IMG/VR virus record: IMGVR_UViG_3300022837_000114
Coordinates: 1-21,404 of that record
Length of the DNA: 21,404 bases
From: a virus
Reading direction: 5' to 3' (one strand)
A model generated the notes under the pieces. The model was not told the origin of the DNA. It ran no database searches and saw only the letters and a program-made list of their open reading frames with translations. Every line of letters begins with the position of its first letter. Position 1 is the stretch's first letter. This document shows positions 1,752 through 14,600 of the stretch, piece after piece. The translations under genes were made by a program, and so were the position numbers.

Positions 1752-3614
1752 GTGAATATAATAACGGTAGACTTCGAGACGTACTACGACAAAGACATCT
1801 CACTACGCAAACTAACTACAGAAGAGTACGTGCGCCACGAAGGGTTTGAGGTAATAGGCGTTAGCGTTAAGGTGAACAATGAGGAAACAACATGGCTAAG
1901 TGGTCCACATGACGCACTCAAAAAATACTTACTCGCTAATTACGATTGGGAAAACTCTGCTGTATTGGCTCACAATACTATGTTTGACGGGGCTATTCTT
2001 AGTTGGCTGTTTGATATTCACCCTCGGGTATGGCTTGATACTTTGTGTATGGCACGCGCGCTACATGGCGTGGAGGTTGGCGGGTCGCTTGCGTTCTTGG
2101 CGGAGAAGTACGAGCTAGGGGTAAAGGGCACAGAGATACTCAATGCAGTTGGTAAACGGCGGGCAGACTTTTCTGTCGAAGAGTTAGATCGGTACGGAGA
2201 CTACTGCGTAAACGACACGGAGATTACCTATAAACTGTATAACAAGTTTGCGGCAGACTTCCCTGTTATAGAACTTAAAGTAATAGACATGACCCTACGT
2301 ATGTTTATCGACCCCGTACTAGAGTTGGATACGCCGAAACTAAAACTGCATTTGGACCTTCTTAAAGACCAGAAAGATGAACTCCTAGAACAGTGCGGGA
2401 TAGAGAAAGACGAGCTGATGTCTAACCCTAAGTTTGCCAAAGCACTCGAGGCGCTGGGCGTTACCCCACCTATGAAAACAAGTTTGCGTACTGGTAAGGA
2501 AGCCTTTGCGTTTGCTAAGAGTGACGAAGCATTCAAAGCCCTACAAGAACACGAAGACCCACGAGTACAAGCCTTAGTCGCCGCCCGTATCGGATTGAAA
2601 AGTACCCTAGAAGAAACACGAACCCAACGGTTCTTAGAGGTAGCGTCGCGGGGGAGGATGCCGGTTCCTATCAAGTACTACGCAGCGCATACCGGAAGGT
2701 GGGGCGGCTCAGATAAATTGAACCTCCAGAATTTACCGTCAAGGGGGCCGAACGCCAAGGTACTTAAGTCCAGTATTTGCGCGCCCGAAGGGTACTCTAT
2801 AATAGAAGCTGACTCCGCTCAGATCGAAGCGCGGGTTCTTGCGTGGCTATCAGGGCAGTCCGACTTGGTTGCCGCGTTCGAGAACGGCGAGGATGTGTAC
2901 AAGAAGATGGCGGGCGCTATCTACGGCAAGAAGGAAGAAGACATAGACGGACCCTCAAGGTTTATTGGGAAAACGACAATACTCGGATGCGGCTACGGTA
3001 TGGGCGCGGTGCGGTTTAAGGAGCAGTTAAAGACTTTAGGCGTTGACATGGAGCAGGAGGAAGCCGCGCGTATTATTAAGATATACAGGCACACGAACAA
3101 CCAGATCATTAAGTTGTGGCGGGAGTGTCAGGTAGCTTTGGAGGGCATGCTTGCGGGCGACGCTTACGCAATAGGATTAGGTGGGGTACTACAAGTAGTT
3201 CCAGAACAGAACGGTATACGCCTACCTAACGGTTTGATGATGCGTTACGGAGACCTCAAAACTTCAGAAGGCGAACGCGGACTAGAGTACTCATACAAAA
3301 CGCGTAGGGGAGACGTGCGAATCTACGGGGGTAAAGTAGTAGAGAACGTATGCCAAGCTATAGCGCGGTGTATTATGGCGGAACAAATGCTACTAATATC
3401 AAAACGCTACCCAATACTTCTTACCGTACATGACTCTGTGGTATGCTCTGTACCAGATAGTGAGCTTAACGAAGCAGCAGCTTACGTATCCGAATGTATG
3501 CGTTACACCCCCGATTGGGCAAAGGGCCTTCCGGTGCGTGGTGACGTGGAAACCGGAAAGAATTACGGAGAATGTACAGAATGGCGCAACCCACATGGTC
3601 CTTCAGCAGCATAA
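1752..3614 (+). CDS. polA: Family A DNA polymerase with 3'-5' exonuclease; Leu at the '762' position
   Basis: This 620-residue replicative polymerase lacks the 5'-3' exonuclease domain of bacterial Pol I. The proofreading domain shows VDFET (Asp7, Glu9), AHNTMFDG (Asp79) and YCVND (Tyr151, Asp155). Polymerase motif A is ADSAQIEAR (Asp354, in place of DYSQIELR). Motif B is RFIGKTTILGCGYG (Arg403, Lys407, Leu411, Tyr415). Motif C is TVHDSVV (His560, Asp561). Aligning Arg403/Lys407/Tyr415 with E. coli Arg754/Lys758/Tyr766 puts Leu411 at the Phe762 position. Catalytic residues are intact. It starts with GTG at 1752 behind AGGGGA at 1736-1741. The 3' end overlaps the next nuclease gene, so the two are probably cotranslated. 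It copies the phage genome together with the downstream primase-helicase. Confidence 0.95.
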   Translation: MNIITVDFETYYDKDISLRKLTTEEYVRHEGFEVIGVSVKVNNEETTWLSGPHDALKKYLLANYDWENSAVLAHNTMFDGAILSWLFDIHPRVWLDTLCMARALHGVEVGGSLAFLAEKYELGVKGTEILNAVGKRRADFSVEELDRYGDYCVNDTEITYKLYNKFAADFPVIELKVIDMTLRMFIDPVLELDTPKLKLHLDLLKDQKDELLEQCGIEKDELMSNPKFAKALEALGVTPPMKTSLRTGKEAFAFAKSDEAFKALQEHEDPRVQALVAARIGLKSTLEETRTQRFLEVASRGRMPVPIKYYAAHTGRWGGSDKLNLQNLPSRGPNAKVLKSSICAPEGYSIIEADSAQIEARVLAWLSGQSDLVAAFENGEDVYKKMAGAIYGKKEEDIDGPSRFIGKTTILGCGYGMGAVRFKEQLKTLGVDMEQEEAARIIKIYRHTNNQIIKLWRECQVALEGMLAGDAYAIGLGGVLQVVPEQNGIRLPNGLMMRYGDLKTSEGERGLEYSYKTRRGDVRIYGGKVVENVCQAIARCIMAEQMLLISKRYPILLTVHDSVVCSVPDSELNEAAAYVSECMRYTPDWAKGLPVRGDVETGKNYGECTEWRNPHGPSAA

Positions 3615-4255
3615 AAACTTTCGAGCAGTGTCCTAAGAAGTACTACCACTTAAAGGTAGCGAAAGACTACAAAGAAGACTTCAACACGGACGCCATACTG
3701 TACGGCAACGAGTTTCACAAAGCAGCGGAAGAGTACATAAGAGACGACGTAGAGCTAGAAGCTAGGTTTGACTACACACTTGCGGCTTTGGATAAACTAA
3801 AGAACTCGAAGGGCGAGAAGCTGTGCGAGTACAAGATGGGACTTACGGCGGACCTAGAGCCGTGTGGTTTCTTCGACAAAAACGTATGGTGGCGGGGGGT
3901 AGTTGACCTTGCCATACTTGATAGAGAAGCCGGTACCGCTAAGGTAATAGACTACAAGACGGGTAAGTCTGCGAAGTACGCCGACAAGGGGCAGCTAGAA
4001 CTAATGGCTTTGGCTATGTTCAAGCACTTCCCCGAAGTGAAGATAATAAAAGGCGGGTTGCTGTTCGTGGTATGCAACGCGTTTGTAAAAGACACCTACA
4101 CCATAGAACAAGAATCGGAACTATGGCAGAAGTGGTTGGCCGACTACGCCAAGATGGCGAAAGCCTACGAAGTAGATGTTTGGAACCCGCGTCCTACTGG
4201 GTTATGTAGAGCGCATTGTATAGTAATGGAATGTCCACATAACGGACGGAGATAA
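3581..4255 (+). CDS. RecB/Cas4-like PD-(D/E)XK exonuclease with a possible Fe-S cysteine cluster
   Basis: The 224-residue protein has the RecB/Cas4 nuclease order: SFSSIKTFEQCPKKY near the N-terminus, GNEFHKA (His46), RGVVDLA (Asp109), VIDYKTGK (Asp124-x-Lys126) and QLELMAL (Gln138, where many relatives have QxxxY). One N-terminal cysteine (Cys17) and three C-terminal cysteines (Cys209, Cys213, Cys218) are placed as in Cas4/AddB proteins that bind a 4Fe-4S cluster, although the C-x3-C-x4-C spacing differs from the usual C-x2-C-x5-C. It probably resects DNA ends during phage recombination or replication. I prefer ATG 3581, because GGAG at 3567-3570 lies 10 bases upstream; the ATG at 3572 is only one base from that site. 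It overlaps the polymerase gene by 34 bases. Confidence 0.88.
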   Translation: MAQPTWSFSSIKTFEQCPKKYYHLKVAKDYKEDFNTDAILYGNEFHKAAEEYIRDDVELEARFDYTLAALDKLKNSKGEKLCEYKMGLTADLEPCGFFDKNVWWRGVVDLAILDREAGTAKVIDYKTGKSAKYADKGQLELMALAMFKHFPEVKIIKGGLLFVVCNAFVKDTYTIEQESELWQKWLADYAKMAKAYEVDVWNPRPTGLCRAHCIVMECPHNGRR

Positions 4256-4705: not shown

Positions 4706-4984
4706 ATGCCTTACAAGGACCCAAAAGATAGACCTAAGCAAAAGAACAAACCCGTCGGCAGTCCTGAGTTTGAAGCTAGGATGGAACGCCAACGCGCTAG
4801 GCGAAAGATGGACAAGGAAGGCAAGGACGAGAACAACAACGGCAAAGCCGATAAGCGCGAAGGCAAAGACGTTAGCCACAAGAAAGCACTTAGTAAAGGC
4901 GGTTCAAACAAAGACGGGGTAACAGTAGAAAGCTCCAGTAAGAACCGTGCTAGAAACTACAAAAAGAAAACGACGAAGAAGTAA
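4706..4984 (+). CDS. Small, highly basic protein with an HNH-like 'GKDVSHKKALSKGGSN' segment
   Basis: The 92-residue product has very high Lys/Arg content. ATG 4706 follows AGGAG at 4694-4698. Residues about 50-85 (REGKDVSHKKALSKGGSNKDGV, then SSSKNRARN) resemble the core of HNH-type proteins, with one His followed by a GG-N stretch and a downstream Asn. The cysteine pairs and the second catalytic His are absent, so nuclease activity is doubtful. Short basic proteins with this segment are, from memory, frequent in marine phages and are sometimes annotated as structural. It may coat or bind nucleic acid. A hairpin with a T run follows the stop. Confidence 0.7.
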   Translation: MPYKDPKDRPKQKNKPVGSPEFEARMERQRARRKMDKEGKDENNNGKADKREGKDVSHKKALSKGGSNKDGVTVESSSKNRARNYKKKTTKK

Positions 4985-5002
4985 CGCAACATTACAAAAA
5001 GT

Positions 5003-5040
5003 AAATAGAGGGAAGCACACAGCGGTTTCTCTCTATTTTT
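5003..5040 (+). terminator. 13-bp hairpin followed by a T run, possible intrinsic terminator or attenuator
   Basis: Bases 5003-5015 pair with 5026-5038 (AAATAGAGGGAAG against TTTCTCTCTATTT) with two G-T wobbles, around a 10-base loop. The 3' arm runs into five T residues at 5036-5040. It lies 18 bases past the stop of the basic protein and 17 bases before the SNF2 ATG at 5058. The GGAGA binding site of that gene comes directly after it. The stem is AT-rich at its base, so termination may be partial. Confidence 0.6.
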
Positions 5041-5057
5041 GTCCTCTGGAGAAAGAG

Positions 5058-6599
5058 ATGCAGATAGTAGACAACAAGGCGTTGCGGCTTAAAGTGCGTA
5101 ACCCCATGCAAATAACAACAGCAATACCCCGCAGTAAAAGTTTAGGCAACAACGAAGTGCTAGTTAAATGGGGTATGGAAGAAGCGCGGGTATTAAAAAA
5201 TCTAGGGATAAAGAACGTACCGTCACCAATTTTAGGCCAGTACAGTTGGGCCGGTAAGTTTAAACCGTTCGAGCACCAGAAAACCACGGCTGCTTTTTTA
5301 ACGATGAACCAACGGGCGTTTTGTTTTAACGAGCAAGGCACCGGTAAGACGGCCAGTTCTATATGGGCCTCGGACTTCCTAATACAATTGGGGATAGTAA
5401 AACGCGTTCTCATAATATGCCCTCTGTCGATTATGGACTCAGCATGGCGGGCAGACCTGTTCTCCTTTGCTATGCACCGTACGGTTGACATAGCTCACGG
5501 GGCTAGGAAGAAACGAGAAGAGATAATTAGAGGTGGTGCGGAATACGTAATCATAAACTACGACGGCGTAGAGATTGTGCGGGATGCGATTGACGAGGGC
5601 GGCTTTAATTTAATCATAGCGGACGAAGCCACACACTATAAGAACCCACAAGCAAAACGATGGAAGGTATTGAATTCTATAATAAAACCAACTACTTGGC
5701 TGTGGATGATGACGGGTACACCTGCTGCACAATCGCCGCTTGACGCGTACGGGTTAGCGAAACTAATTAACCCAAAGGCCGTACCCCGCTTTGCGGGGGC
5801 TTTCAAAGAGATGGTGATGACCAAGCTTACCCAATTCAAGTGGGTTCCCAAGGAAAGCGCTACGACTATAGTGTACAACGCACTTCAACCGGCAATTAGA
5901 TTTACTAAAGAACAGTGCCTAGACCTGCCGGAAATGACGTACGTAAAACGCGAGGTGGAACTAACCCCTCAACAGAACAAGTATTACAAAATACTTAGAA
6001 GTCATATGCTTACGATAGCTGCGGGCGAATCTATTTCTGCCGCTAACGCTGCGGTTAACATGAACAAGCTGCTACAAATATCTTGTGGGGCGGTGTACTC
6101 CGACAGCGGAGAGACCGTAGAGTTTGACGTGAAGAACCGCTACAAAGTATTATCCGAAGTAATCGCAGAGTCTAGCCAGAAAGTTTTAATTTTTGTGCCG
6201 TTCAAACACGTGATTAGAATACTCGCAGAGAAACTAAACAAGGACGGTATAACCAACGCAATTATTAACGGGGATGTGTCGGCCAACAAACGTACTGCCA
6301 TATTCAACGAGTTTCAAACTACCTCTGATCCTAGGGTACTGATTATCCAACCCCAAGCCGCAGCGCACGGCGTAACGCTTACCGCAGCAAACACTATTGT
6401 ATGGTGGGGTCCAGTGCCCTCTTTAGAAACGTACGCGCAAGCTAACGCTAGGGTACACCGCTCTGGGCAGAAACACCCATGCACTGTGGTGCAGCTACAA
6501 GGGTCGTCAGTAGAGCAACGTGTTTATAAAATGTTAGACCAAAAAATAAATGTACATACAAAAATGATAGATTTATACAACGATGTGCTTGATACCTAA
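5058..6599 (+). CDS. SNF2-family DEAD/DEAH-type helicase
   Basis: The 513-residue superfamily 2 helicase of the SNF2 class contains Walker A NEQGTGKTASS (Lys97), motif II ADEAT (Asp189, Glu190), motif III MTGTPAAQSP, and in the second lobe QAAAHGVTLTAANTIVWW followed by motif VI QANARVHRSGQ (Arg465, Arg468). Both RecA lobes are complete. Phage SNF2 helicases are generally thought to act in replication restart or recombination, translocating on duplex DNA. ATG 5058 is chosen because TGGAGAAAG lies just upstream and the protein then begins directly with the conserved region. The open frame runs back to 4947, but that would overlap the previous gene and translate through the hairpin. Motif II reads DEAT rather than DEAH, as is common in phage members. 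Confidence 0.9.
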   Translation: MQIVDNKALRLKVRNPMQITTAIPRSKSLGNNEVLVKWGMEEARVLKNLGIKNVPSPILGQYSWAGKFKPFEHQKTTAAFLTMNQRAFCFNEQGTGKTASSIWASDFLIQLGIVKRVLIICPLSIMDSAWRADLFSFAMHRTVDIAHGARKKREEIIRGGAEYVIINYDGVEIVRDAIDEGGFNLIIADEATHYKNPQAKRWKVLNSIIKPTTWLWMMTGTPAAQSPLDAYGLAKLINPKAVPRFAGAFKEMVMTKLTQFKWVPKESATTIVYNALQPAIRFTKEQCLDLPEMTYVKREVELTPQQNKYYKILRSHMLTIAAGESISAANAAVNMNKLLQISCGAVYSDSGETVEFDVKNRYKVLSEVIAESSQKVLIFVPFKHVIRILAEKLNKDGITNAIINGDVSANKRTAIFNEFQTTSDPRVLIIQPQAAAHGVTLTAANTIVWWGPVPSLETYAQANARVHRSGQKHPCTVVQLQGSSVEQRVYKMLDQKINVHTKMIDLYNDVLDT

Positions 6600-6662
6600 A
6601 CATAACTAGAATAGACTACATGTCGTTCCATTAAACTAAAACACTACACAGGAGATGTGCGT
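6600..6662 (+). promoter_or_regulatory. AT-rich 63-base gap; possible internal promoter region
   Basis: This is one of only four non-coding gaps longer than 60 bases in the window. It holds a TAGAAT hexamer at about 6608-6613 and a CATTAAAC stretch, and ends with GGAG at 6651-6654 serving the next ATG. No -35 hexamer at acceptable spacing was found, so promoter activity is only a possibility. Confidence 0.25.
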
Positions 6663-7076
6663 ATGAGTGAAGAGATTGCGGATGAGGCTAGATTAAACAA
6701 ACTCATCGGGGTGTACATAAAGATACGCGATAAGAAGTTGCAGATAGTCACCGAGATGAAAAAGCAAGAGGACGACTTGGAGGAGAAGCTAGGTAAAGTT
6801 AAGGCCGCGCTTTTAGCTCACTGCAAAGCAACAGGACTAGAGTCTGGTAAGACAGAGTTAGGGTCCTTCTACCGTTCAGTAAGAACTAAATACTGGACTA
6901 GTGATTGGGATTCTATGAGTAAGTTTATGCTAGAAAACGAAGCGGTAGACTTACTAGAGAAGCGCCTACACCAAGGCAACATGAAGCAGTTTTTAGAAGA
7001 GAACCCAGACCTACACCCGCCCGGCCTTAACACCGATAGGGAGTACACAGTAACTGTAAGGAGGAGTAAAAATTGA
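6663..7076 (+). CDS. Conserved phage protein with N-terminal coiled coil, unknown function
   Basis: The 137-residue protein begins at ATG 6663, eight bases after GGAG at 6651-6654; an in-frame GTG at 6657 is too close to that site. Residues about 10-50 form a charged amphipathic helix likely to be a coiled coil. The second half carries GSFYRSVRTKYWTSDWDS, then LLEKRLHQGNMKQFLEE and NPDLHPPGLNTDREYTVTVRR. From memory this block recurs in phage replication regions without an assigned function. The organisation is reminiscent of Gam- or Gp157-like accessory proteins, but I see no decisive motif. Its TGA overlaps the next gene's TTG start (TTGA at 7073-7076). Confidence 0.78.
   Translation: MSEEIADEARLNKLIGVYIKIRDKKLQIVTEMKKQEDDLEEKLGKVKAALLAHCKATGLESGKTELGSFYRSVRTKYWTSDWDSMSKFMLENEAVDLLEKRLHQGNMKQFLEENPDLHPPGLNTDREYTVTVRRSKN
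7058..7065 (+). promoter_or_regulatory. Strong Shine-Dalgarno site supporting a TTG start
   Basis: AAGGAGGA at 7058-7065 is close to a full anti-SD complement and lies seven bases before TTG at 7073. No ATG or GTG occurs in this frame between the site and the conserved domain, so it decides the unusual TTG start. Confidence 0.7.
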
Positions 7077-7399
7077 ACGATGTAGATTCGTATGTACCAA
7101 TAGACGATTTGGCGGAAGTGCTGAACGTAAAAACCCAAACGCTACGGGCGTGGGTACGCCAAGGTTTTATCCCTAGGGATACCTACATAAAAGTAGCGAA
7201 CACCTATAGGTTTAACATCCCCCAAGTTATCGACGCGCTGCGGACGGGGAAAGAGCTAGAAGAACACGTAGACGAAGTTACTAATATGCCGGAAGAAAGC
7301 GTATCAGACCTTGCCTATGAAATTACAAGCGCGACCACAGAACGTCCAAGCCTACAAGAACAACTGGTTCTGGACTTAGACGAAAACGAAGACTTTTAG
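7073..7399 (+). CDS. Helix-turn-helix DNA-binding protein (MerR/excisionase-like fold)
   Basis: The 108-residue protein starts with TTG at 7073 behind a strong AAGGAGG site and overlaps the previous gene by four bases. Residues about 7-60 form a HTH_17/MerR-like domain: IDDLAEVLNVKTQTLRAWVRQGFIP, then a beta-wing-like YIKVANTYRF and NIPQVIDALRTG. The remaining half is acidic and probably unstructured, ending in LDLDENEDF. Proteins with this fold include phage excisionases, transcription regulators and small terminase subunits. With no integrase or large terminase in the window, the choice stays open. A transcription regulator for this module, or an excisionase, are the leading options. Its stop TAG is part of the AGGAG site for the next gene. 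Confidence 0.8.
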   Translation: MNDVDSYVPIDDLAEVLNVKTQTLRAWVRQGFIPRDTYIKVANTYRFNIPQVIDALRTGKELEEHVDEVTNMPEESVSDLAYEITSATTERPSLQEQLVLDLDENEDF

Positions 7400-7405
7400 G
7401 AGTAA

Positions 7406-8362
7406 ATGATGAGCAACGTACAATTATTTGAAAACATGCCCGCCGCGTACAAAGACCTTTTGGCCCAACTAGCGCCAGAGAAGAACTTAACCGGTGGAGA
7501 GTACTCTAGCAGCCATAGACTAAGTATCCGTGGTGGGGTATTCCGTAAGCTCGTAAACGGTAAGGAAGTGGCCGAACTAGAAAGCCGCTCGCTTAAAGCA
7601 GTAATCATTAAAGCCGCACCGCTTTCTAGGATGTACTACAAAGGCACTTACGCTGCCGGAGAGTCTAACCCTCCCGTATGTTGGTCCGCCGACACCCGTA
7701 CAGGGTTCCCCTCAGATGACGTAATTTCTAGCGACCGCCAAGCGAATAAGTGTGGTGACTGCGCTCAGAACGTAAAAGGTTCGGGGCAAGGCGAGAGCCG
7801 TGCGTGTAGGTTCCAACAGCGTGTAGCGTTATTACTCGCGGACGGCGAAGGCAACATAGTATCTAAAGAGGTGTACCAACTATCTCTACCGGCTACTAGT
7901 GTGTTTGGGGACAAGCAGGACAAGATGCCGATGCAAGCCTACGCTCGCTTACTGGCTAGCCACACGTCTCCAGTAGCTTCGGTACTTACCGAAATACGTT
8001 TCGATACTGATGCGTCTACGCCTAAGCTTTGCTTTAAGCCGCTGCGTCCACTGGAAGAATCCGAACTGCTAATGTCTATCGACTTACAGAAGAGTCCAGA
8101 AGTAGAGAAGATGTTGACTATTACGGTAAGCAAGAAGACTGAGCAAGACGGCCCCGCAGTAGCAGAACCCGCCGCACTACCCCCTCTGTTTGCGGACCCT
8201 ACGCCAGAAGCAAAACCTGCGCCCGCGCCAGAAGCAAAGCCAGAACCTGTAGCGGCTGCGGAGGCAATCGAAGAGCCTACGGTAAAGGTATCTAAGAAGA
8301 AGGCGGAACAGCCCAAGCCGGACGAAGACTTGTCTAGTCTTTTAGAAGAGTGGGACGACTAA
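7406..8362 (+). CDS. Putative zinc-binding ssDNA-binding protein with acidic C-terminal tail
   Basis: The 318-residue protein (317 from the second ATG at 7409, which has the better spacing from AGGAG at 7398-7402) has a globular part of about 240 residues. It holds four cysteines, Cys91, Cys115, Cys118 and Cys133 numbered from 7409, within PPVCW, KCGDCAQN and RACRFQQR, which is a likely zinc site. YQLSLPATSVFG and a helical QAYARLL follow. The last 75 residues are a Pro/Ala/Glu/Lys linker with a PEAKP repeat, ending in LSSLLEEWDD. A disordered linker plus a short acidic tail is the architecture of SSB and T7 gp2.5, whose tails recruit replication partners. The gene lies directly before the primase-helicase. 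I recognise no named family, so the SSB role is inferred. Confidence 0.72.
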   Translation: MMSNVQLFENMPAAYKDLLAQLAPEKNLTGGEYSSSHRLSIRGGVFRKLVNGKEVAELESRSLKAVIIKAAPLSRMYYKGTYAAGESNPPVCWSADTRTGFPSDDVISSDRQANKCGDCAQNVKGSGQGESRACRFQQRVALLLADGEGNIVSKEVYQLSLPATSVFGDKQDKMPMQAYARLLASHTSPVASVLTEIRFDTDASTPKLCFKPLRPLEESELLMSIDLQKSPEVEKMLTITVSKKTEQDGPAVAEPAALPPLFADPTPEAKPAPAPEAKPEPVAAAEAIEEPTVKVSKKKAEQPKPDEDLSSLLEEWDD

Positions 8363-8446
8363 CCTTTTAGACCCAACGCACTAAAATAAACGGGCTAGGG
8401 TTCCCTAGGGAACCCTCGACCCTCAAAAAAAGTACTAAGAGATGTG
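8363..8446 (+). promoter_or_regulatory. 84-base intergenic region with a perfect 20-bp palindrome
   Basis: The gap between the putative SSB and the primase-helicase contains AGGGTTCCCTAGGGAACCCT at 8397-8416, identical to its own reverse complement. A shorter CGACCCTC copy of the arm, an A7 run and then AAGAGATG before the start follow. No T run follows on either strand, which argues against a simple terminator. It could be an operator for a dimeric protein, a replication signal or an mRNA hairpin. Confidence 0.5.
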
Positions 8447-11377
8447 ATGATGAATACGAAGGAATTTCTAAGTACAGTGCTAGGGGACGAAGGGTTTTAT
8501 TGTGTTTACGCTATACGAACTAAAGATAACAAACATGTATCCAAGTTCTATAACTCAATAGACTCAGTAGTCAACACTGCACTGAACCGCGACGCAGAGG
8601 GGTACGATGCGTATTACGCGCTAGGTACTTTTGTAAAAGAGCGTAGTAGGCTAGCAGAAAACGTATGCCAAATGCGCTCTCTGTTTTTAGATATAGACTG
8701 TGGGGAAACCAAACCCTACCCAGATAAAAAGAGTGGAATGGGCGCATTGCGCGCGTTCTGCGAACAGCTATCCCTACCTAAGCCTACCATTATTGTCGAT
8801 TCCGGCGGGGGCTTACACGTGTACTGGGCGTTAGACAAGCCGTGTACTAGACAAGAGTGGCAGCCGGTAGCCACTAGACTTAAGAAAGCGTGTGTCGATT
8901 ACGACTTCCATGTTGACCCCGCTATAACTGCGGACGCGGCAAGAATACTGCGCGTGCCCAATAGCCATAACTGCAAGTTCGACCCTCCCGCAGAGGTTAA
9001 AGTAGTGGGTATGCCTCAGAGCACAGTGGTGCTAGAAGAGTTTGCCGCGCAGTTGCCCTACCCAGACTTAATACCAGTTCTTCAAGAAAGAGAGTACACG
9101 CAAGCCGACAAGGAAAACGCAAAGAACTTAGCAGGCAATAACCTAGTTAAGAAGTTTGCAAACATACTGTTGAAGGACGCTGAGGGTAAAGGCTGCGCGC
9201 AAATACATAAGGCGCTGTTTGACCCTAACAGCTTATCCTATAATGACTGGACGCACGTGCTGTCTGTCGCAAAACACTGTGAAGAACCAGAAGCCATACA
9301 CGTAGTCTCACAAGGGTACGAAGCCTACTCGGCGGACGAAACAGAGAAGGTAGCAGCATCACTACACTCACCCCACCTATGTACTACCTTTGAGGGGGAC
9401 AACCCAGAGACATGCAAAAACTGCCCGCTGTGGGGCAAGATTAAAAGCCCGATAAACTTATCCTATGAGATAAAAGAAGCTACAGAAGCGGATAACATAA
9501 TACAGATACCCGACCCCTCTGTGGCTACTGCTACTGTGTCTGCGGATTCGGGGTTGTTTGCTAACTCAGGAGAAGACGAAGAGGTAGAGGGCGTCGTACC
9601 TACTATAGACTATACGATACCTACTTACCCCGCACCGTACTTCAGGGGCGCACGTGGCGGGATATACGTACGCCAGTTCAACAAAGACACCAAAGAGATG
9701 GAAGAAATTCCGATCTACGCCCGAGACTTGTATATAACTAAGCGAATAATGGACCCCGTAGATGGGCCTTCGTTTGAGTTTAAACACCATACTAGGTTAG
9801 AGGGGATAGAGACGTTCGTAATAAAAGGTACGGACCTAACCTCCAGAGACGAGTGCCGGAAAGCTTTGGGTAGGAACGACATCCACTTACTAAAACCGGA
9901 TAACATAATGAACTACATTCAGGCTTGGGTAGAAGACTTAGCGGGGCAGATACACCGCGTGGACGCAAAAACTCAGTTTGGTTGGACAGAGAACATGGAG
10001 TCTTTTGTCCTTGGGGATAGAGAGATATTTGCAGACAGAGTAGAAGAGAACCCACCCTCGGGGCATACTGCACGGTATATGCCTATGTTTAAGAGACGCG
10101 GGACGCTAGATGGTTGGCGAGAAGCTATGGAGTTCTATGAGAAACCCAACATGGAGCCACATCAGTTCATGGTAGCTACGGCGATAGGGTCTATCTTAAT
10201 GACTTTCATCCCTAACATACGCGGGTGTATAAACCACGTGTACAGCCCAGAGTCGGGGTACGGCAAGTCCACAGGTATGATTGTCGGCGCGTCTATTTGG
10301 GCTAACCCAGAAGAATACATAATGAACGGGGAGTCCACAGCCAACTCTATTTGGAACAGGGCGGAGGCTATGAAGAATCTACCGATCTACATAGACGAAG
10401 CTACCAACATGGAAGGAGACGACGTTAGTGATATAGCGTACGCGGTTACTAGCGGTAAGCAGAAGACTCGTATGACTAGCGGCGGTACTAATAAAGAACG
10501 GTACCAAGGTAAGGCTTGGGCCTTGATGTTAGGTACTAACGGTAACACTAGTTTCATAGACAATTTGTCTAACGCTAAGGCGGTACCAAGAGGAGAGATT
10601 CAGCGTGTTATAGAAACACGTTTGGAGAAGTTAGACATCCCAGAAGATGAAACCATGGCGCTGAACAGGGCGGTAGTTAACAACCACGGCCACGCAGGAG
10701 AGTTGATAGTTCAAGAGATACTACGCGACCCCCAAGCGGTGGAGGATTTGGTTTTTAAATTCCGTAAACTAGTAATAAAGCGCGCGGGACTGAACGATCA
10801 AAACAGAAACTGGGTGGCTAACGCCGCGTGTAACTTAGCGGGGGCAGTGTTAGCAAAGCGCTGCAATTTGTGGAACATAAACATACAAGGGCTTAGCGAT
10901 TGGGCTATCGCACGTCTAAAATATATGAAGGGCGTAGACAGCTCGCTGGACATAGACATATATGACTTAGTTAGGAACTACTACTTCGAGAAGCAGGGGC
11001 AGATTATTCGCATAAAGAGCACACAGGACGGCAGAAGCAAGGATGAGTCGGGGCTAACCGATACCTTTGTTAACCCAGAGAAGCTACCCCATTACTCTTG
11101 GGTTGGGCGGTATGAGTATGATGTGAAGAGGTTCTATATGCTTATTAAACCATTCAAAACCGAGATGCGGAAACTGAAGCATAACCCTACCCAAGTAGAT
11201 GAGGAGATATATAAACACATGGGGGGCGTCAAGAAGAAGGTACACTTAGGTAAAGGCACCACGATAAACATAGGCAGCGTGTATGTCTTATGCGTAAACT
11301 TCGATGCGGGGGACGATGACGACGACGAGTTTGAAACCCCAGAAAATTTAGAATCTTTGTATGCGCCGAAAGCTTAA
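8447..11377 (+). CDS. Bifunctional primase-helicase (AEP-type primase plus DUF927-like ATPase)
   Basis: The 976-residue replication protein has an archaeo-eukaryotic primase-like module at its N-terminus: SLFLDIDCG (Asp82-x-Asp84), VDSGGGLHVYW (His124) and DAARILRVPNSHN. Residues about 310-330 hold a HLC...CKNC cluster (Cys312, Cys323, Cys326) that may bind zinc. After an acidic linker, a DUF927-type helicase domain carries YSPESGYGKST (Walker A, Lys607) and PIYIDEATNM (Walker B, Asp650, Glu651). The C-terminus has an acidic DDDDDE stretch. Such proteins synthesise primers and unwind the fork ahead of a family A polymerase. ATG 8447 is used; ATG 8450 or GTG 8444 are alternatives behind AAGAGA. 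It overlaps the last plus-strand gene by 17 bases. Confidence 0.9.
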   Translation: MMNTKEFLSTVLGDEGFYCVYAIRTKDNKHVSKFYNSIDSVVNTALNRDAEGYDAYYALGTFVKERSRLAENVCQMRSLFLDIDCGETKPYPDKKSGMGALRAFCEQLSLPKPTIIVDSGGGLHVYWALDKPCTRQEWQPVATRLKKACVDYDFHVDPAITADAARILRVPNSHNCKFDPPAEVKVVGMPQSTVVLEEFAAQLPYPDLIPVLQEREYTQADKENAKNLAGNNLVKKFANILLKDAEGKGCAQIHKALFDPNSLSYNDWTHVLSVAKHCEEPEAIHVVSQGYEAYSADETEKVAASLHSPHLCTTFEGDNPETCKNCPLWGKIKSPINLSYEIKEATEADNIIQIPDPSVATATVSADSGLFANSGEDEEVEGVVPTIDYTIPTYPAPYFRGARGGIYVRQFNKDTKEMEEIPIYARDLYITKRIMDPVDGPSFEFKHHTRLEGIETFVIKGTDLTSRDECRKALGRNDIHLLKPDNIMNYIQAWVEDLAGQIHRVDAKTQFGWTENMESFVLGDREIFADRVEENPPSGHTARYMPMFKRRGTLDGWREAMEFYEKPNMEPHQFMVATAIGSILMTFIPNIRGCINHVYSPESGYGKSTGMIVGASIWANPEEYIMNGESTANSIWNRAEAMKNLPIYIDEATNMEGDDVSDIAYAVTSGKQKTRMTSGGTNKERYQGKAWALMLGTNGNTSFIDNLSNAKAVPRGEIQRVIETRLEKLDIPEDETMALNRAVVNNHGHAGELIVQEILRDPQAVEDLVFKFRKLVIKRAGLNDQNRNWVANAACNLAGAVLAKRCNLWNINIQGLSDWAIARLKYMKGVDSSLDIDIYDLVRNYYFEKQGQIIRIKSTQDGRSKDESGLTDTFVNPEKLPHYSWVGRYEYDVKRFYMLIKPFKTEMRKLKHNPTQVDEEIYKHMGGVKKKVHLGKGTTINIGSVYVLCVNFDAGDDDDDEFETPENLESLYAPKA

Positions 11378-11585
11378 GCCCAACGAGATAGACCCGGACG
11401 GCATTGCGTTTGAAGTAGATGTAGAGCGCTTTGCCGTCGGCACGTCTATGTTTGTACCGTGTATAGACACCGCTAAGGCGGTACACCAAGTAAAAAAGAT
11501 AACTAAACTAACCGCAACGCAGATAGAACACCGTGTAGTGATAGAAGCGGGCAAGTATGGTGTGCGTGTTTGGCGTGTGGTGTGA
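11361..11585 (+). CDS. Small unknown phage protein closing the replication module
   Basis: This 74-residue frame overlaps the 3' end of the primase-helicase by 17 bases and ends with TGA at 11583-11585, just before the convergent terminator. The sequence MFVPCIDTAKAVHQVKKI followed by VVIEAGKYGVRVWRV suggests a small alpha/beta domain seen, from memory, in other phage genomes without a known function. No clear Shine-Dalgarno site precedes the ATG, so translation is probably coupled to the upstream gene. No other motif is visible. Confidence 0.65.
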   Translation: MRRKLKPNEIDPDGIAFEVDVERFAVGTSMFVPCIDTAKAVHQVKKITKLTATQIEHRVVIEAGKYGVRVWRVV

Positions 11586-11622
11586 TAGAATACAGGTTCA
11601 TCATTCTCTTAGTCGAGAACTT

Positions 11623-11663
11623 AGCCCCCTTCACGGGGGCTTTTTTTTTTTTTTTTTTTTTTT
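11623..11663 (+). terminator. Strong intrinsic terminator with a 23-base T tract between convergent modules
   Basis: A 7-bp GC-rich stem, AGCCCCC (11623-11629) against GGGGGCT (11635-11641), with a TTCAC loop is followed by an uninterrupted T run at 11641-11663. This is a classic rho-independent terminator for the plus-strand module. The final two T residues belong to the TAA stop of the minus-strand giant gene. On the minus strand the A tract precedes the hairpin and no U run follows, so termination there would be weaker. Confidence 0.92.
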
Positions 11664-14600
11664 AGTACTCTTCTCCCGCCGCTTCCATCCTAGCTCGCAA
11701 CACAGTTTCTCTACGTCTAGGGCTTATAGTCACTCCACCGAACTGCTTAGTAACGTCACTAGTTCTTTCGTGCTGCTTAAGCGACCGCTCTATAGTATCC
11801 GGGGTGATCGGGAAGTCTGGATTGTCCTCGTTAAACTCTTGCATTCTCTCGTTTATGTCCCCCATAGCACCGAAATCATTCGTACGCTTGGCTATGTAGT
11901 ATTCACGGAGCAGCTTAGTGCGGCGCGTATTCACGTTCCTGTCTATACGCTTATCTACTGAGTTTCTTTCCAACTGCTGTGTGTAGCTAGCAGGAGCGAG
12001 ACCCACGGCTTGTGCCGCTATAGCTAGCGGGTTTATGTCTTCGACTATTGGGTCGCCGCGTAGTGTGGTGACGCCTTCGGTACTGTATCTAGCCGACTTC
12101 ATTACGTTGCTTGCGAAGCTAGGCACCATCTTCTCTACGCCTCGATACACTTCACCTTCGTTAATTAAGCCGATCCCGCCAAACGCGCGATTTGCAACTC
12201 CGTACACAGGACCTGCGAATAGCTCAAGACCTTGCAGTACGAGACTATCTTGCTCTTTGTTAGGCAGACTACGGAATACCAAGTTGGTCATGCCTATACG
12301 TGGAGCTACATCTGCACCAGTAATATAGTTTATAGCGCCGGAGTATGCGCCTTCACTAAAGAACGTAGACGCCATAGTATCAAAGTCTTCGTCTTCATCA
12401 TCGAGGAATACAGTGTTCATAATGAACGAGATAACGCCGTACAGGGGCAGACCTTGTACCCCCGCTAGTAGCCCGGAAGTAGCGAACAGACCCGCTAGTT
12501 GTTTCTTAGCCACTGTCCTCTCGTCTCCGGTAAGGTTCTTATCGAAAGCCTGCTTAGCCATACGCGCCTGCAAGTAAAGCATCGACACACCAAAGCGCTT
12601 GTACATAAACAGTACACTACCAAGATTGCTTTGCGCAAAACGAGGAGCGGTTTCTGTAAGTGCGCCACTGTTTGTTAGTTCCGCAGCGTCCAATGCTCCT
12701 TGGGCTGCGGCTTCGAGGTCCGCATCTGTCAGCTTAGTAGCGTCGCCTTTATACTTTGCATCCGCAATGCTCTGCATTTCCAAATCAAACGTAGCCATAG
12801 CACTGACTTGTCGGTTAAGTCGCTCGCCTTGGTGGAACATATACCCCATAGTAGCATTAACCTTAGTCCACACAGTACTGGCGGGGTTTTCCATATCCAA
12901 GGCATCAGAGGTCATGGTCGTATTAGCTTGCCCGCGCCTATCTAAAAGCTCCGCTAGAATTTTGTAGCGCTGTAGTTCTGGGGAGGTAGCGGGGTCGTTG
13001 TAGTCCACGTTAGTAAGTGAAGGCCCTTCCGCAGCCGTACCGAATACAACATCACCGAAACCGGTCGTAGTACGGCTCTTTGGAGTAGCCATGAACCGCT
13101 TGTGGGCGTCGAACAAAGCTCTGTTTGCGTCTTTATATCCGTACTTGCCGCCGAGATAGGGCAGCACTACAATTGGTAGGTTAGTCCAGTTAACTAGCAC
13201 AGAGGACACGTTAAAGCCTAGGGTCATACCAAAGCCCGCAGACTTAAGGGCACGACTCCACGTAGCTAGCTGTGGGTTTTTAGCGAACTCTATGTACTCT
13301 TGGAAGTGCCCCACTGTCTGAGTAATATTTTGCTTATCTTTTAACGTAAGCCCCGGCTTGTTCATTGCCTCTTTCTTCTCAGCCTCAAACGCGATGTTAA
13401 GCTTAGCTAGTTCTGTTTCGTACTGTAAGTTTACGGTCTGGTTTACTATGTTAGGCATACGCTCTCTAAGTACTTTTATAGCGTCTTTTTTAAAACCTAA
13501 AACACCTTCTCGTTGCTGCAATGCTCTAGCCAGTCCGCGCTCAGGCATGGCGTCTAACAACATATCCAACACCATCTTCTCAGTTTGCTTGTCTAACTTT
13601 AGCGGCTCGCCGGTTTTGTCGTCTTTACGGGGCTTGCGCAGTTCCGCCAGTAGTTTGGCGGCGAAGCCGACCTCTACATTACCTTGGCTTCGTCGCTTGG
13701 CTTCGTCTATACGGTCGTACTCAGAGAAGTCGAACAGGGTTTCAGGGGCAACCCCCGCCTTGTTTACCTTCGGATCACGCAAGGCGTCCAAGATTTCGGG
13801 GTCGTTTAGTATGGCGTCTTTTGCTACCTGCCGCTGACGTTCAGACTCAAACGCTTCTTTGTACGGTTCTATATTGCCTGTATCTGGGTTAACCGCGCTG
13901 TACTGTAGCCAGTAATCGCCTTTGCGGTATAGCGGGAAGTACGGCTCAATGGCCTCTTTGGATAAAAGCTCGCCGAGAATCCTATCCTTTAACTGTTTGT
14001 TTAGGTTGGGGTCTTTCTCAAGGGCGTCTATTCGAGCTTCCAAAGTTTTCTTAAGCTCTGCGTACATCTCTGCGTAAGAATCCCGCAGGGTAACGTAGGC
14101 GTCTCGGCTAGTTTGGTCCAGCTTACTCCAGTACTCTTTCTGTAGCCTGTCGTACTTCTCTAACTTACCTGTGTCATTTTTGTAGTCCGAGCGCGGCTTT
14201 GACGGGTCTACCCTGTCCATCGTACTTGCGCCTATTACAGCATCCCAAATTTTCTTCTGCTCGTCCCTACCTTTAAACGCCTTAGTAAGCGCCGCCGCAG
14301 TATCGTTAGTTTTACGTAGGTACTTCTGGCGCGCGCCCGCCTTGTCTTGAATAGTATTCACTAAGTCTCTACCTAGCTTACTAATCGCAGGCATCTCTCG
14401 CTCTATAACGTTAGCAATAGCAGGAAGTGGGAGCATATCTAACAGTGTCTTGCGGGCAGTTCGCTCTGCGTCGCGCATAAACCCAGATACGGCGGCGATG
14501 TTCTCGGACGATACCCGGTCGTTAACAAACTTACCTAAGCTGTCCACAACCTTTCTCTCTTCTCCCTTGGCCGCAGCTAGCGGTAGAGCAGTAGCATTAC

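Follow-up and report, generated by a model that had tools for sequence, protein, structure and literature searches.

Does the gene directly before the primase-helicase in the window (the whole 21,404-nt stretch of viral DNA analysed here) encode a single-stranded DNA-binding protein (SSB)? An initial annotation, made by reading the sequence, had proposed so from a four-cysteine site, a flexible linker and an acidic tail. We consider this probable, at roughly 0.8: the window protein would be a phage SSB that works in the manner of T4 gp32, with a putative affinity for single-stranded DNA (ssDNA) and zinc and with no detectable sequence link to gp32 itself or to T7/Enc34, N4 or bacterial SSBs. 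We are led to this reading by the design of the protein, its place in a replication cassette, the near-lack of other SSBs in the records that carry it and the host-SSB-like tips of some branches of its family. The initial proposal is supported by OB-type models, genome context and tails, while affinity for ssDNA is something we infer.

The gene is an intact open reading frame (ORF) with an ATG start, encoding 318 amino acids before its stop (Table 1). Its cysteines lie at residues 92, 116, 119, 134 and 209, so that the first four give exactly the spacing C-x23-C-x2-C-x14-C that was first described. The other parts initially listed are also as claimed: the Pro/Ala/Glu/Lys linker contains two copies of PEAKP, LSSLLEEWDD forms the last ten residues, and the primase-helicase ORF begins 81 nt after the gene. 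Residues 241-318 carry a net charge of -9. The core is near-neutral across the family and not clearly basic (+3 in the window protein; median -1 in 52 viral relatives and +1 in 49 genome relatives), which counts against the SSB reading.

Table 1. Features of the window around the SSB-like gene, with the basis for each.
Feature	Position	Strand	Basis and remarks
Family A DNA polymerase	1752..3614	+	Pfam/PHROG match; 36/45 viral family loci
PD-(D/E)XK (RecB-type) exonuclease	3572..4255	+	Pfam/PHROG match; 43/45 viral family loci
SNF2-type DNA helicase	4947..6599	+	Pfam/PHROG match; 45/45 viral family loci
Small Gam-like protein, phrog_13900 ('minor head protein')	6657..7076	+	PHROG match; weak Gam-type Pfam match, E 0.11
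Protein with weak helix-turn-helix matches, below Pfam cut-offs	7073-7399	+	Directly upstream of SSB-like gene
Likely ribosome-binding site AGGAG	7398..7402	+	Inferred from sequence; overlaps stop of upstream helix-turn-helix gene
SSB-like gene, four-cysteine, OB fold predicted	7406..8362	+	PHROG 27714, PHROG 23155; no Pfam family
Predicted OB-type core, residues 35-240	7508..8125	+	AlphaFold model, 10-residue blocks pLDDT 57-95; range aligned to gp32 core
Putative zinc loop, C92 to C134	7679..7807	+	Four Cys in 56/56; block pLDDT 57-77
Flexible Pro/Ala/Glu/Lys linker, residues 241-308	8126..8329	+	Sequence; pLDDT about 48-58
Acidic-hydrophobic C-terminal tip LSSLLEEWDD	8330..8359	+	Sequence
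Primase-helicase, next gene downstream	8444..11377	+	Primase/helicase PHROGs and DUF927

The protein is not an orphan, as it matches PHROG 27714 (E 2.2e-30) and PHROG 23155 (E 8.9e-10), and both of these are of 'unknown function'. The same two PHROGs are matched by all aligned relatives (56/56 and 54/54), and PHROG 5686 by 18/56 and 33/54. Pfam holds no family for the window protein and NCBIfam gives a chance-level match; over the family as a whole both yield only weak matches (E 0.018 or worse), Pam3_Gp34 (PF23977) aside, which TIN2 matches just under the cut-off (26.3 of 27 bits) and GTE7 also below it. When the window protein, TIN2 Orf55 and two profiles were run against PDB sequences, all matches were weak and unrelated, at E 0.17 or worse. 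PHROG 27714, 23155 and 5686 and Pam3_Gp34 are all sequence families with no stated function, for which an SSB role is proposed here. In the open-access literature, searched with limited coverage, we found no described function for the PHROG 27714/23155 family.

The family is large. Thirteen annotated phage records match the window protein at 26-31% identity, with products that are hypothetical, uncharacterised or unannotated; they include Pseudomonas phages KPP25, phiR18 and Rollin, Xanthomonas phage Xp15 and Acinetobacter phage Effie, as well as HHU4, MD-2021a and ctUtU524. With a clostridial relative as query, 27 phage records are obtained, which include phages of Rhizobium, Faecalibacterium, Thermoanaerobacterium and Meiothermus. 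Another 103 represent a distant branch, known from phages of Tsukamurella, Gordonia and Rhodococcus; the searches behind the figures 13, 27 and 103 overlap. This branch, to which TIN2 and GTE7 belong, is linked to the family by profile comparison, at probability 98.2 and E 4e-14 with alignment A4 and at 96.7 and E 3.5e-10 with A3. Profile scanning of viral contigs gave 397 relatives; the 80 best were retained and reduced to 52 at 85% identity. The scan of bacterial genome contigs gave 66, mainly from Clostridia and Proteobacteria. In phage ctUtU524 (L016, MW202621), the family ORF around the match at 10001-10618 is absent from the record annotation, and a phage AXL3 protein with a match to KPP25 YP_009030602 appears as hypothetical where its source lists it (PMC7504290).

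All four cysteines are invariant in each set of aligned relatives (8/8, 56/56 and 54/54), even where identity to the first row falls to 17%. The motif recurs in all 52 viral loci left at 85% identity, and the four residues are also present in 74/74 clostridial-type viral relatives. The main scans that fetched these rows used patterns containing Cys 3 or 4 (viral) or Cys 2-3 or 4 (genome), one matching pattern sufficing per locus, and Cys 1 was part of none of them. The conservation of the four residues is more than chance.

An OB fold plus a zinc site was the expectation to set against structure prediction. The AlphaFold model of the window protein, built on 56 sequences, has a mean pLDDT of 71.5 and a pTM of 0.66; strand blocks mostly reach 77-95, the cysteine stretch 57-77 and the tail about 48-58. 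The second model, of a clostridial relative that shares 26% identity with the window protein, was built on its own 54-row alignment (12 rows shared with the viral members) and gave pLDDT 84.2 and pTM 0.81, with 65-86 in the cysteine stretch. With VIA-align, the T4 gp32 core (1gpc) aligns to the window model at Z 5.8 over 146 residues and 4.5 A, placing model residues 35-240 on chain residues 27-219, and RB69 gp32 also scores 5.8; for the clostridial model the values are 6.5 (1gpc) and 6.6 (RB69 gp32). Taken together, the gp32 core alignments have Z 5.8-6.6 over 144-147 residues (1gpc, 2a1k), with 8gme at 4.3-4.8, values that lie under what the tool regards as safe. BRCA2 OB folds score 6.2 for the window model and 5.9 for the clostridial one, and the lower rows hold RPA, MCM, HIN, Teb1 and SSB domains together with, for instance, polymerase epsilon and tRNA synthetases. 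The Z scores of 5.8-8.4 are moderate, in a range that the tool flags as possibly a merely common arrangement; that the models of two distant relatives agree matters more, in our view, than either moderate Z.

Foldseek gave a similar mixture. Against the PDB, neither model has a match at E<=0.001 and many rows are unrelated proteins, among which RPA-type and gp32 entries stand in the first rows for the window model. Against predicted viral structures there are 31 matches at E<=0.001, mostly uncharacterised or nameless; one is named Single-stranded DNA-binding protein (E 6.7e-5), and a phage BRock row of the same name lies at E 2.4e-3. BRock gp86 (234 aa), which by its length is the protein of that row, is gp32-like by profile, at probability 76. 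The core of the window protein is predicted to be OB-type, with OB proteins aligning over the whole domain in two models at moderate scores; in both models the cysteine loop belongs to the regions of lowest confidence.

The first rank for both models goes to another protein, the recombination directionality factor (RDF) gp3 of phage phiC31 (9teh_I), with Z 7.6 over 158 residues at 4.0 A for the window model and 8.4 for the clostridial one. Since gp3 is itself encoded between exonuclease and primase/polA genes, in a similar replication cassette, the family might consist of RDFs of this kind. We regard this as most improbable. The two share no sequence similarity or common cysteine pattern: kinship with gp3, suspected from the fold and a C-G-C-P stretch, went unsupported at sequence level, as the profile probability is 1.2 or less and the gp3 cysteines are missing in 4/8 aligned gp3 relatives. 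PF18897 matches nothing in the family and is found in 0/44 family-bearing records, in a search run without a positive control, and no integrase is annotated in stretches of about 20 kb (not whole genomes) of KPP25, Xp15 and Effie, the last of which has mostly unnamed ORFs. We take the structural closeness to gp3 as a lead, and no test of kinship. The phiC31 gene (L102 23098-23832) has exonuclease, primase and polA in its cassette, and where Microbacterium and Arthrobacter phages encode gp3 relatives, an exonuclease, resolvase or primase gene is close by.

What does the neighbourhood say? On the + strand of the window the order is polymerase, exonuclease, SNF2 helicase, Gam-like gene, helix-turn-helix gene, SSB-like gene and primase-helicase, with a few unnamed ORFs interspersed. 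By tblastn, the 45 viral family loci of at least 10 kb (among the 52) hold SNF2 in 45, primase in 44, exonuclease in 43, the Gam-like gene in 43 and polA in 36; genome-contig family loci of at least 10 kb (n=53) hold SNF2 in 47, polA in 42, primase in 16, the Gam-like gene in 8 and exonuclease in 7. Because few queries were used, these counts are lower bounds wherever a neighbour seems absent. The SSB-like gene lies directly before polA in 74/80 viral loci fetched through the clostridial polA, its end being a median of 66 nt and at most 539 nt from the polA match. Of the six loci that lack it, three have <500 nt of DNA upstream, and the three with longer flanks (L236, L240, L272) have other DNA there, with no SSB evident by eye. 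As the Cys4 gene accompanies this clostridial polA lineage almost without exception, the lineage offers little ground for judging whether that gene and the Enc34-type SSB exclude one another.

Ligands of zinc-type loops and OB folds also include dsDNA, RNA and proteins, and the gene directly upstream looks helix-turn-helix, if only below Pfam cut-offs. A zinc protein of the early region that binds dsDNA or RNA, as a regulator or in nucleoid fashion, could thus be imagined, and to our minds it is far-fetched: linkage of the gene with helicase and polA recurs in different hosts, and the acidic design of linker and tip suits SSBs better.

The cassette also bears on an unlikely, if less easily dismissed, explanation, in which the host SSB coats the DNA and the window protein is an OB-fold accessory that acts on the coated strand as a mediator, an annealing protein or a helicase or primase loader. 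OB folds are common in all of these, the gene adjoins exonuclease, helicase and primase genes, SSBs are present in all 8 bacterial genomes examined, and the core, as noted, is not clearly basic; the product of the T7 SSB record is also named annealing protein. However, partners read SSB through its tail, so that one would expect a mediator to bind such a tail, not to bear one, and the Enc34 SSB occupies a matching slot beside polA, with the exonuclease gene on its other side and a helicase gene not far away. A phage SSB remains our preferred reading of the locus.

The Gam-like gene (phrog_13900) accompanies replication genes in 43/45 viral loci, and its label 'minor head protein' is probably wrong. 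The KPP25 copy also matches DUF7307, Pam3 gp33-like, at cut-off.

If the window protein is the SSB of its phage, other SSBs might be scarce in genomes that encode it. The initial annotation saw no other SSB in the module, and this agrees with our searches: PF00436 has no match in the window's 21.4-kb record, which is possibly a fragment, and none in 45 family-bearing records (Xp15 counted twice). That set contains seven named records, with KPP25, Xp15, Effie, HHU4 and ctUtU524 described as complete and Rollin as partial. Phrog_112 and PF10991 were each found in 0/44 family-bearing records, both searches being without a positive control. In later searches, phrog_112 detected T7 and Enc34 and 0/8 family records (Xp15 twice), whereas PF10991 detected Enc34, with T7 under the cut-off, and 1/23 family records (7 of them searched before); PF00436 was found in 1/18 further viral records. 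Known SSB families are thus nearly absent from family-bearing records, and apart from these later exceptions no clear SSB was found elsewhere in them. One exception (G054) carries its PF00436 gene about 8 kb from the Cys4 gene, on the opposite strand. The other (G058) has two separate cassettes, exonuclease-PF10991-Enc34-type polA and SNF2-Cys4-own polA, so that each polymerase has an SSB-type neighbour of its own.

The acidic tail typical of phage SSBs is present in the window protein and varies among its relatives. A net acidity of at least 3 in the last 10 residues occurs in 27/53 relatives against 25/407 other ORFs of the same loci, and of at least 4 in 18/53 against 9/407. Among 52 viral relatives, 25 have both a net acidity of at least 3 and a hydrophobic residue close to the C-terminus, and another 25 have the hydrophobic residue with acidity below that level; many end LNLDDLNFDD or similar.

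Some branches have a tip that resembles the host's own SSB. The bacterial SSB-type D/E..PF tip is found in 5/146 relatives, all clostridial, against 6/2227 control ORFs (the 146 come from 66 genome loci and 80 viral ones, redundancy included). We compared the tails of SSBs from the same genomes with those of the relatives and with 1125 control tails. L179 ends NGFMNVPDEISEELPFN and the SSB of its genome ends DGFMNIPDGIDEELPFN, identical at 13/17 residues; this pair scores 75, and the best of the 1125 controls 43. Scores are lower for L180 (29), L182 (44), L185 (33) and L187 (38), where 2, 1, 3 and 1 controls, respectively, score as well or better. Two neighbouring ORFs that look primase-like, one in L180 and one in L185, account for six of these seven control matches; as such neighbours bear SSB-type tips too, the tip alone is no marker of an SSB. 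The two ORFs lie beside the Cys4 gene (L180 10737-13391, L185 10628-13261), contain a CPFHRDKNAS/CPFHRDRNAS stretch and end much like their Cys4 neighbours, in DDEDFPF and DDEPLPF. Actinobacterial SSBs generally end DDEPPF; TIN2 and GTE7 end DDDEEPPF. For E. coli, the SSB-Ct motif is given as DDDIPF (PMC5872125). An SSB-type P-F end is found in 0/74 clostridial-type viral relatives, most of which (L193-L272, 74/80 loci) have a conserved acidic end like DPETGEVIEPLK, for example DPETGEVIEPL. This end is possibly a docking tag for their own polymerase.

How does the family compare with established phage SSBs? The types named in one account are T7-like, E. coli SSB-like, T4 gp32 and N4, and the T7 gp2.5/Enc34 type is described there as an OB fold with an acidic tail (PMC5686142). 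That no named SSB family can be recognised, as was noticed by eye, is confirmed with profiles: none links the protein to bacterial, T7/Enc34, T4 gp32 or N4 SSBs. For the T7 gp2.5/Enc34 type the hhalign probability is 0.2 or less, and family proteins match neither PF10991 nor phrog_112, a type that is also seldom found in family records (PF10991, 0/44 and then 1/23). For N4 SSB (gp45), represented by its one sequence, the probability does not exceed 0.3. The likeness to bacterial SSBs is confined to the C-terminal tip of some relatives; PF00436 finds no match in the window protein, and the family has a four-cysteine stretch instead.

In design the family resembles T4 gp32. Over and above the predicted core, which aligns over the whole domain at moderate Z, gp32 has an acidic tip, DLDDLLNDL, that recalls the ends of many relatives, and a zinc site within its core with a C-x2-C pair, as the putative site of the family has in its middle. 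In gp32 the ligands are given as His64 and Cys77, 87 and 90 (PMC3012046). The family differs in having Cys4 in place of His-Cys3, its fourth cysteine lying downstream, and the loose pattern H..C..C-x2-C is itself found in only 27/77 gp32-type sequences. Further, the hhalign probability is below 1 for T4 gp32 alone and for a 77-sequence gp32 profile, where the positive control, the gp32 profile against the BRock SSB, gave 76. Kinship with gp32 had been suspected from a CSST stretch of gp32 that paired with the first-Cys region of the family in both profiles, and the 77-sequence profile did not support it.

Set against the SSB reading are the moderate structural scores, the variable tips, the SSB-type tip on neighbouring ORFs and the records G054 and G058, which encode a known SSB as well. 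We nevertheless propose a model in which the OB-type beta-barrel, predicted at residues about 35-240, would bind and protect the ssDNA that arises from the SNF2 helicase, the exonuclease and the primase-helicase. The four-cysteine loop inserted in the barrel would hold a structural zinc ion, comparable to that of the His-Cys3 site of T4 gp32. The long flexible linker would carry the acidic-hydrophobic tip to dock on polymerase and primase-helicase, and in some relatives this tip may also dock on the host proteins that read the bacterial SSB tip.

If this function holds, the family would be either a further type of phage SSB or a branch of the gp32 type that has diverged very far. It would fill a gap in the replication module of phages whose examined records nearly all lack a known SSB, and would extend the phage SSB classes by a zinc-bearing OB type. 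The family is large and unstudied, the gene unnamed in annotated phage records, and it offers a candidate new ssDNA-binding protein. The host-SSB-like tips suggest one route by which a phage may plug into the host proteins that read SSB, and the predicted fold common to the family and the phiC31 RDF, a part used in genome engineering, may hint at where that RDF came from. It is a tentative and rather doubtful step further to picture a separate SSB class, spread through phages and prophages of Proteobacteria, Firmicutes, Actinobacteria and Meiothermus, with a Cys4-zinc OB fold and a copy of the host SSB tip to hijack its partners; such a class would share a remote ancestor with gp32 and the phiC31 RDF, the latter being an SSB turned switch.

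Two observations concern the DNA around the gene. In the Thermoanaerobacter locus L140, SNF2 and polA are each split in two ORFs (7879-9236, 10575-12496) and the Cys4 gene is intact, which suggests a decaying prophage. In the window, a perfect 20-nt palindrome, AGGGTTCCCTAGGGAACCCT, lies at 8397-8416, between the SSB-like gene and the primase-helicase. It is present there as a single copy, which 0/100 shuffles reach, and its 16-nt core recurs in 5/388 loci, namely L001-L004, where an identical protein is encoded, and L013, the window's own locus. The palindrome is a possible operator or hairpin.
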